A stretch of 64,000 nt of DNA, from assembly GCA_004294135.1 (NCBI GenBank), contig RDZY01000015.1, positions 1-64,000 on the forward strand. The letters are read 5' to 3'. The DNA is from Sphingobacteriia bacterium. Lineage in GTDB: Bacteria; Bacteroidota; Bacteroidia; Chitinophagales; Chitinophagaceae. Each line of letters opens with the position of its first letter. Position 1 is the first letter of the stretch. Under the pieces are notes generated by a model. The model saw nothing but the letters and a program-made list of their open reading frames with translations. It ran no database searches and had not been told where the DNA came from. The translations under genes and the position numbers were made by a program. Positions 60,516-61,769 of this stretch are shown in pieces.

Positions 60516-60929
60516 ATGAAAATAGTGACTACTTGGAAAGAAGCATTGGCTTTTGATGCACTATCCGATAGCGGACATATCGTAACATTAGATACTTCTG
60601 TTGAAGGTGGGGGGCTCAATAGTGGCATGAATCCTAAAAAAATGTTGCTCGCTTCTCTATGCGGCTGTAGTGGAATGGACGTTGTAGATATACTGCATAA
60701 AATGAAAGTAGCTTTTAGCAAATTAGAAATTACAGCGGAAGCCGAACAAACAGATGAACACCCCAAAGTATTCAAATCAATTCAACTCGTATACAGCAGT
60801 GATATAGCCGCAGCAGATGCCGATAAACTGAAACGTGCTGTAAGCCTCTCTATGGAAAAATATTGCGGAATTTCCGCCATGCTGGCAAAACATTGTGCCA
60901 TTACTCATACCATTCAATTGGTTCAATAA
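60516..60929 (+). CDS. OsmC-family protein
   Basis: The start at 60516 gives MKIVTTWKEALAFDALSD; the longer open frame upstream overlaps the dismutase gene. This 137-residue protein has the OsmC/YhfA fold, with NPKKMLLASLCGCSGMDVVDI and the second redox cysteine in KYCGISAMLAKHC. Members reduce organic hydroperoxides or act on unknown thiol substrates. The position after a superoxide dismutase gene fits an oxidative-stress role. A perfect 13-bp inverted repeat follows its stop. Confidence 0.85.
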   Translation: MKIVTTWKEALAFDALSDSGHIVTLDTSVEGGGLNSGMNPKKMLLASLCGCSGMDVVDILHKMKVAFSKLEITAEAEQTDEHPKVFKSIQLVYSSDIAAADADKLKRAVSLSMEKYCGISAMLAKHCAITHTIQLVQ

Positions 60930-60975
60930 AAAATGGACAGCAACAAACTGTTTAACAATCTATTGCTGTCCATTT
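60928..60975 (-). terminator. Intrinsic terminator of the tRNA-like RNA
   Basis: AAATGGACAGCAA at 60975-60963 and TTGCTGTCCATTT at 60943-60931 form a perfect 13-bp stem on the minus strand, followed by TTTTTT at 60933-60928. There is no T-run on the plus-strand side, so it serves minus-strand transcription, although the stem can also halt the convergent osmC message. Confidence 0.85.
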
Positions 60976-60980
60976 AAATG

Positions 60981-61152
60981 CTGTAGGGGGAGGGATCGAA
61001 CCTCCACGAGGCAGTTAGCTATAGCACAAAGTTCAGTGGTCGACCCTGGTCACTCTGGTATTGCTACCATCGTGGCTCTACACTACGTTTATCCTGTTAT
61101 CCTCACCCCCGAGACAAGAGGGCATGTCTGCCAAAAATTTCATCACCCCACA
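60981..61152 (-). ncRNA. tRNA-like RNA with giant variable arm
   Basis: On the minus strand the RNA folds like a type II tRNA. The acceptor TGTGGGG (61152-61146) pairs with CCCTACA (60988-60982). A short D stem ATG/CAT carries a GG-containing loop. The anticodon stem CCCTC/GGGGG holds the loop TTGTCTC. The T arm GGAGG-TTCGATC-CCTCC is perfect. The variable arm opens with GAGG and closes with CCTC but contains about 90 nt with its own stems, including GGTA-GCAA-TACC (a GNRA tetraloop) within CAC/GTG. The anticodon would be GUC, but position 37 is U, which is atypical, so decoding is doubtful. A promoter and terminator flank it exactly. Confidence 0.65.
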
Positions 61153-61156
61153 GTAA

Positions 61157-61187
61157 AAGAACTATTTTGTTCGTTGTATAAATCAAA
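61157..61187 (-). promoter_or_regulatory. Candidate promoter of the tRNA-like RNA
   Basis: On the minus strand TTTG at 61187-61184 and TAGTTCTT at 61164-61157 (two mismatches to TAnnTTTG) are 19 bases apart. The predicted start coincides with the first base of the acceptor stem near 61152. The rest of the gap up to 61298 is AT-rich spacer before the Lrp gene. Confidence 0.45.
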
Positions 61188-61298
61188 ACTAAGCAATTCA
61201 GGTATTAATTAATCATTTTCGAAGAAAAAATAAATAAATATAGAAATTATTTAATAATATTGTCATTATATTAGATTAATTCAAAATTATAGTGCAAT

Positions 61299-61769
61299 AT
61301 GTCTCTCAAATTAAATCTCGACAAACTAGATTTTCAGATTATCCAAGAAATGATGGAAAACGCAGAAGTCTCTTATGCCGACCTTGGCAAGAAATTATTT
61401 GTATCTGGTGGCACCATCCATGTACGTATTAAAAAACTTGAAGAACTAAAGATTGTGAAAGGTAAGCGTTTATCGGTAGACCTGAAACTACTGGGATACG
61501 ATGTAATTGCTTTTATTGGTATTTACCTCGAAAAAAGTTCGCTTTACGATTCCGTTGCCAAAGAACTTAAAAAAGTACAGCAAATTGTACGCCTTAATTA
61601 TACTACCGGCAATTACAGCATGTTCGCTGAAATTGTTTGTAAAGACATTCAAGAACTGCGATTTGTATTGCACGATGAATTGCAAAAAATTAAAGGAATT
61701 GAAAGAACCGAAACATTTATTTCACTGGAAGAAAGCCTCGACAGAAATGTGGTGGTTGCTCAACCATAA
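61299..61769 (+). CDS. Lrp/AsnC-family transcriptional regulator
   Basis: The 156-residue protein has an N-terminal winged helix-turn-helix (IIQEMMENAEVSYADLGKKL, then GGTIHVRIKKLEELKIVKG) and a C-terminal RAM ligand-binding domain (YSMFAEIVCKDIQELRFVL). Members sense amino acids and form octamers on DNA. The effector is not evident. It is divergent from the tRNA-like RNA and 15 bases before a polysaccharide chain-length gene, so it may control either, though the spacing to the next gene suggests cotranscription. Confidence 0.88.
   Translation: MSLKLNLDKLDFQIIQEMMENAEVSYADLGKKLFVSGGTIHVRIKKLEELKIVKGKRLSVDLKLLGYDVIAFIGIYLEKSSLYDSVAKELKKVQQIVRLNYTTGNYSMFAEIVCKDIQELRFVLHDELQKIKGIERTETFISLEESLDRNVVVAQP

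Follow-up and report, generated by a model that had tools for sequence, protein, structure and literature searches.

The tRNA-like gene and its parts

The window, a stretch of 64,000 nucleotides from contig RDZY01000015.1 of a Sphingobacteriia bacterium (assembly GCA_004294135.1), encodes a tRNA fold on its minus strand between positions 61153 and 60980, with all four arms present and a long, structured variable arm. The initial annotation had proposed a free-standing tRNA-like RNA with its arms in the right order, and all of them were recovered there on the minus strand. In tRNA numbering, T1 to G73 correspond to 61152 to 60981, position -1 is 61153 and C74 is 60980. The features of the locus are collected in Table 1.

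Table 1. Features of the tRNA-like RNA gene and its neighbour
Feature	Position	Strand	Basis or remark
tRNA-like RNA, positions -1 to C74	60980..61153	-	sequence, alignment, covariation
Acceptor stem, 5' strand, U1 G2 U3 G4-G7	61146..61152	-	pairs with 60982-60988
Acceptor stem, 3' strand (60982-60988), and discriminator G73 (60981)	60981..60988	-	conservation
D arm, 3-bp stem, loop with A14 A15 and GG, tRNA-Leu-like	61124..61143	-	stem covaries
Anticodon arm; loop TTGTCTC at 61117-61111, GUC at 61115-61113	61106..61122	-	covariation, conservation
Variable arm; 4-bp stem, 61104-61101 with 61011-61008, around 89-nt insert	61008..61104	-	covariation
GGUA-GCAA-UACC hairpin within insert	61057..61068	-	comparison of relatives
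GGGUCGACCAC hairpin with bulged A; GGGUUGACCAC in many long members	61036..61046	-	comparison of members
T arm, GGAGG-TTCGATC-CCTCC	60989..61005	-	covariation, conservation
Intrinsic terminator, 13-bp stem (60933-60975) and T run	60926..60975	-	sequence
Promoter-like TAnnTTTG site, TAGTTTTG	61184..61191	-	best match to consensus
AsnC-like Lrp/AsnC regulator	61299..61769	+	divergent from RNA; family and structure-database matches

The acceptor stem of the window copy reads TGTGGGG/CCCTACA and is followed by U8 and G9. The D stem that had been described is present and covaries, but it comprises only 3 bp (ATG/CAT) and varies among relatives, where ACG/CGT, GTG/CAC and TTG/CAA are found; the D loop is AAATTTTTGGCAGA. 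The anticodon arm, CCCTC-TTGTCTC-GGGGG, retains U33 and has U37 in place of a purine. The variable stem, GAGG/CCTC, is paired in every alignment cell having letters on both sides, and the insert that it encloses, given earlier as a structured element of about 90 nt with a GNRA-capped stem, is 89 nt long (61100-61012) and contains such a hairpin. The 13-bp terminator is also as described.

The expected transcription start is one point at which the initial annotation is not supported, since it had been placed at the acceptor stem. The best promoter-like site, TAGTTTTG, matches the promoter consensus TAnnTTTG, and similar sites lie upstream of many relatives; it predicts a start approximately 25 nt ahead of the acceptor stem, so that a 5' leader would need trimming. 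The leaders of many members carry AGTTCTTT just before the RNA (61155-61180, minus strand, in the window). This element resembles boxA of rRNA leaders and is a possible antitermination or processing site.

A family with a covarying tRNA fold

At the DNA level, 28 of the other 36 genomes in the genus gave matches with E<1e-15, and weaker matches were obtained in the rest of the order. In an alignment of 12 diverse members, from which a model termed R1 was built, 98.1% of cells are paired, compared with 49.5-62.2% when the partners are slid, and double-sided changes are seen at 10 of 27 pairs. In a larger alignment of 106 distinct rows, which was fitted to the model and includes two weak non-members, the corresponding values are 96.7% against 54.6-64.6%, with double-sided changes at 19 of 27 pairs. 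Homologues with compensatory changes, for which a search had been suggested, thus exist, and the tRNA-like RNA represents a real family with a covarying tRNA fold.

Folding energy lends no support (z = -0.26 for the window RNA). In scans of the window, ARAGORN reported no tRNA and Rfam gave no match at the gathering score; below the thresholds there were chance-level matches only, on the terminator and the T arm. The titles and abstract openings retrieved from one open-access library contained no recognisable description of the RNA.

Two further features of the RNA were considered and rejected. The apparent reading frame in the insert, a potential peptide tag, is a covarying helix. A pseudoknot between GUCUC of the anticodon loop and GGGAY of the insert is compatible with many members and with a double change in L090; the pairing is lost in L034, L037, L073 and L080, and certain short phage forms do not have the motif.

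Distribution in bacteria

Of the 198 genomes of the order, 114 gave an R1 match with E<1e-20 and were taken as RNA-positive; the weakest accepted match had an E-value of 1.6e-24 and the next one below had 1.5e-12. A looser threshold of E<=0.001 counts 173 of the 198 genomes because tRNAs match R1, and matches of 62 bits or less (tRNAs and the 78-nt L092) were dropped from the genome searches. In a sample of 198 genomes across the phylum, scores of at least 99 bits came from the order itself and from 11 genomes elsewhere in its class, and other classes peaked at 61 bits. The lower matches, of about 75-87 nt, resemble ordinary type II tRNAs. ARAGORN identified two of three that were inspected as tRNA-Leu and the third, L092, as tRNA-Asp. 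This last relative (L092:1501-1578, G300) has no long variable arm and a CTATCTC loop, together with the UGU/ACAG acceptor of the family and a terminator, and is perhaps a reduced member.

A bacterial pattern scan in which GUC, C38 and a pyrimidine at position 37 were fixed returned at least 120 stretches, and R1 confirmed a member in all of the 80 listed loci that were used (the last two of 108 R1 matches on these loci were left out). The family is represented in Chitinophagales, Sphingobacteriaceae and Cytophagales-type bacteria as well as on phage contigs. Hosts in the scan include Chitinophaga, Ferruginibacter, Sediminibacterium, Terrimonas, Saprospiraceae, Mucilaginibacter and Pedobacter, and also Algoriphagus, Cyclobacterium, Belliella, Dyadobacter, Spirosoma and Fulvivirga. 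Chitinophaga pinensis is among the species with a member (L143). One member lies outside the class, in a metagenome-assembled Ignavibacteriales genome (L150, UTCHB1), a placement that could be due to transfer or misbinning.

Tandem copies of differing length are found in several genomes. At L445-L448 (G193, G160, G112 and G196), as many as five or six copies stand in tandem; the array of G193 alternates copies of 179 nt (long) with copies of 121 nt (short), and near-identical tandem copies are present in G196 and G112. In a 118-nt copy within the genus of the window (L032:1451-1568, G035), about half of the insert is gone, and with it the 5' strand of the helix.

Phage copies

The same pattern (GUC, C38 and pyrimidine 37 fixed) applied to viral sequences returned at least 120 stretches. 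By R1, 78 of the 80 listed loci used contain a whole member, scoring 74-127 bits; the remaining two members are cut by the end of the contig or locus and score 60 and 44 bits. R1 matches after the first 78 (64, including both cut members) were left out. Another tRNA or tmRNA gene is present in 41 of the 80 loci, 13 of which have five or more. Ten large proteins from nine viral loci were compared with known families: terminase or portal families account for seven of them, encoded at six loci, which indicates at least six phage genomes, and the other three matched GroEL, an unknown phage family and nothing, respectively. Two members searched against 50,697 named phage records gave no match.

A second viral scan left the anticodon loop free, fixed UGU at positions 1-3 and located the 3' end by ACAGC. 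It too returned at least 120 stretches, and among the 80 listed loci used 14 were new, 13 of them holding a whole RNA. GUC is kept in all 13, though their anticodon stems differ; the exceptions elsewhere in the loop are A38 in two copies and A37 in one. Six viral loci (L283, L295, L303, L306, L318 and L320) are large phage tRNA arrays in which the RNA stands with 12 to 26 other tRNA or tmRNA genes, and a phage tmRNA is also present on the viral contigs L277, L306 and L314.

Constant and variable positions

Conservation was assessed in 257 rows, which gave 232 distinct members after removal of identical sequences, and separately in 72 distinct members found by R1 alone, the 12 training rows included. 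Among the 232, G2, C71 and G73 are invariant, U1 is kept in 230, A72 in 231, and U3 and A70 each in 229. Among the 72, U35, C36, C38, G73 and the pairs U1-A72 and G2-C71 are each kept throughout, and G34 in 71, one member having C34. Position 20a is A by alignment.

The lack of a purine at position 37, remarked upon for the window copy, extends to the family: a pyrimidine is found in 228 of the 232 distinct members, a count favoured by the pattern with which they were fetched, and also in all 72 model-found members. U33 is present in 196 of the 232 and kept in 56 of the 72, being lost in 16. Judged from the sequence, the pyrimidine at 37 and the partial loss of U33 argue against decoding.

Member length ranges from 92 to 198 nt among the 232; short members are without the insert, and in one type found in phages the variable arm holds a plain hairpin. 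The variable arm is therefore not constant, and a shared function should rest on the tRNA core.

Identity elements for AspRS and GatCAB

According to PMC9976931, aspartate identity is based on G73, G34, U35, C36 and C38, the 1-72 and 2-71 pairs contribute as well, and G1-C72 is crucial in bacterial tRNA-Asp. The same review states that U1-A72 lets Asp-tRNA be amidated, G1-C72 and U20a being the barriers. The RNA has the AspRS set G34, U35, C36, C38 and G73, and G2-C71 as well. The AspRS-substrate pair G1-C72 is absent. The RNA combines the AspRS set with the GatCAB determinant U1-A72. Among 34 tRNAs found in a complete relative (G017), only tRNA-Asn and tRNA-Gln begin with U. The genome of the window also encodes a normal tRNA-Asp, with G1, U20a and the loop CTGTCAC. 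The near-invariant positions of the family suggest a mechanism of charging by AspRS and amidation by GatCAB.

Charging by SerRS was also considered, as G73 and the long arm would fit it. It was rejected because the conserved anticodon loop argues for an anticodon-reading enzyme.

The AsnC-like neighbour

A link to the divergent amino-acid regulator had been put forward for the window, and the neighbourhood comparison strengthens it. In 40 author-selected loci of about 15 kb from 38 genomes (one of which, L122, holds the 78-nt outlier only), an Lrp/AsnC regulator is the commonest neighbouring family, found at 22 loci with the runner-up at six. In all 22 the AsnC-like gene is divergent from the RNA, with a gap of 120-223 nt by ORF start. 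AsnC is the best NCBIfam model for each of 11 proteins tested (that of the window and 10 others), at 152-180 bits and at least 75 bits ahead of the next model, the cut-off of the AsnC model being 227; the closest PDB chain to the neighbouring protein is E. coli AsnC. The 18 loci without AsnC belong mostly to family f18, several having tandem copies; judged by eye, the genes closest to the RNA there are of varied kinds. The layout of the 22 loci is that of E. coli K-12, in which asnC stands next to asnA in divergent orientation; AsnC activates asnA in that organism.

Co-occurrence with asparagine genes

The 198 genomes of the order comprise 114 with and 84 without the RNA, and GatCAB was judged by GatB. 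GatB is present in 111 of the 114 and in 46 of the 84 (110 and 45 without two weak matches), with a Fisher p of 6e-14 that ignores phylogeny. The association is also seen within families: in f1, GatB is found in 37/37 RNA-positive and 2/7 RNA-negative genomes, and in f18 in 28/29 and 1/16. The genome of the window has GatB. RNA-positive genomes without it are G124, G147 and G232, and G144 has a weak match only; GatB in 46 RNA-negative genomes implies that it has other work. In genus g27, one genome (G231) has AsnB and neither the RNA nor GatB, three others have both the RNA and GatB, and G168 has GatB and no RNA.

For asparagine synthetase B, TIGR01536 matched 197 of 198 genomes at E<=0.001, and NF006949 was therefore chosen as the marker. 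AsnB of the E. coli type is found in none of the 114 RNA-positive and in eight of the 84 RNA-negative genomes, none of these eight having GatB. AsnB-like matches better than 1e-25 occur in 94 of the 114 RNA-positive genomes and are presumably paralogs. AsnA is present in four RNA-positive and eight RNA-negative genomes, and AsnRS in 193 of the 198 at E<=1e-80. Twenty RNA-positive genomes, including that of the window, and 11 RNA-negative ones lack AsnA and also give no AsnB-like match better than 1e-25.

A probable carrier for asparagine synthesis and its alternatives

The gene probably makes a non-decoding tRNA for the synthesis of asparagine. AspRS would charge the RNA with aspartate and GatCAB would amidate Asp-RNA to Asn-RNA, from which asparagine would be released by hydrolysis and then used by AsnRS and metabolism. 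AsnC may adjust the supply. Asparagine on a tRNA with a GUC anticodon would mistranslate aspartate codons if it decoded, and the pyrimidine at 37 and the drift at U33 fit avoidance of this; the altered loop would keep asparagine out of aspartate codons and the RNA off the ribosome. For the wider claim, it appears reasonably likely that a biosynthesis-only tRNA, with an aspartate anticodon, U1-A72 and a loop disabled against the ribosome, serves a large group of Bacteroidota as well as many phages. Phage copies would then keep up the supply of asparagine during infection.

This reading is supported by the covarying fold, the presence of both determinant sets, the odd loop, the linkage to AsnC and the co-occurrence with GatB. 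Counting against it are U1-A72 where AspRS uses G1-C72, and the few members altered at 34 or 38; the RNA-negative genomes with GatB and the three RNA-positive ones without it; the AsnB-like matches and the four AsnA genes in RNA-positive genomes; the 11 RNA-negative genomes that also lack both synthetases; the absence of AsnC from 18 of 40 loci; and the persistence of U33 in most members. Each of four alternatives explains less of the constant set of features.

The initial annotation had favoured a regulatory or mimic RNA. The odd loop and the link to a regulator, both part of that suggestion, hold up, but a metabolic carrier is preferred, as the RNA retains the determinants for both AspRS and GatCAB and co-occurs with GatB. 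In a regulatory reading, loading by AspRS and GatCAB would gauge the supply of aspartate, asparagine or glutamine, and the variable arm would let the free or charged form act on AsnC or other targets. Such a charge-sensing role is unlikely: the linkage to AsnC and the conservation of hairpins and an internal loop in long members speak for it, but the insert is missing from short members, there is no known target, and phages carry the RNA too.

The same AspRS and GatCAB determinants and a non-decoding loop would also suit a donor of aspartate or asparagine to a non-ribosomal enzyme, for example an aminoacyl transferase acting on lipid, wall or peptide. No transferase-type family is common to the neighbourhoods of the 40 loci, however, and the GatB and AsnB patterns fit asparagine supply better, which leaves the donor role rather doubtful, a little more so than charge sensing.

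Phages are thought to use tRNAs as decoys or spares against anticodon nucleases, and the RNA could serve in such phage–host conflict, as the tRNA and tmRNA genes accompanying it in 41 of the 80 listed viral loci might suggest. Against this, several families have it as a chromosomal gene in most of their genomes, it is linked to AsnC and GatB, and a decoy has no need of U1-A72; this explanation is very improbable. Least credible is an odd but decoding tRNA-Asp, despite GUC at 34-36, the ARAGORN calls of tRNA-Asp for short phage forms and L092, and the purine at 37 in four Mucilaginibacter copies (G37) and one phage copy (A37), since no model-found member has a purine at 37, 16 of the 72 have lost U33, U1-A72 replaces G1-C72, and a normal tRNA-Asp is present.

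If the preferred reading of a carrier for asparagine synthesis is true, it would explain how bacteria with AsnRS and GatCAB and without asparagine synthetases make asparagine whilst their AspRS stays discriminating. It would also provide a tRNA selected for metabolism instead of decoding, placed beside AsnC where E. coli has asnA, and phage tRNA arrays would gain a metabolic member.

Comparison with known systems

YrlA, a Y RNA with a tRNA-like module, resembles the present RNA in being a bacterial RNA that stands by itself and in having acceptor, D and T parts like those of tRNA. The RNA described here has an anticodon arm, however, a TROVE/Ro protein is absent from 40 of 40 genomes, and the Rfam scan gave no match to YrlA; an assignment to this class was rejected. 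The same applies to tmRNA, which it resembles in its tRNA-like ends, several phage copies also lying near a phage tmRNA: there is no tag frame and the genome has its own tmRNA.

A number of parallels can be drawn with the tRNAs of the same genome. The RNA shares a GUGGCGAAAUUGGCAGACGC-type D arm and a long variable arm with tRNA-Leu(UAG), which makes descent from tRNA-Leu likely. It differs from tRNA-Leu in having G73 rather than A73, U1-A72, G2-C71 and a GUC loop, and in a variable arm that is much longer in many members. With tRNA-Asp (GUC) it shares G34, U35, C36, C38, G73 and G2-C71, whereas tRNA-Asp has G1-C72, U33, A37, U20a and a type I variable loop. The arrangement of the locus recalls asnC–asnA of E. 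coli, where the AsnC gene is likewise divergent beside its partner, the partner here being an RNA gene.

Also close is tRNA-dependent asparagine synthesis, which is itself already established; in the open library searched we found no earlier account of a dedicated non-decoding carrier for it. In the survey of 547 genera reported in PMC4206432, 18, with Bacteroidetes among the clades, have AsnRS, GlnRS and GatCAB and no asparagine synthetase, and were taken as consistent with asparagine synthesis on tRNA-Asn. The likeness to that system would lie in aspartate on a U1-A72 tRNA, amidation by GatCAB, and the presence of AsnRS without AsnA or AsnB. There the carrier is the decoding tRNA-Asn, which AspRS must accept, whereas here it would be an extra tRNA with an aspartate anticodon and a disabled loop. 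The RNA offers another possible carrier for such synthesis.
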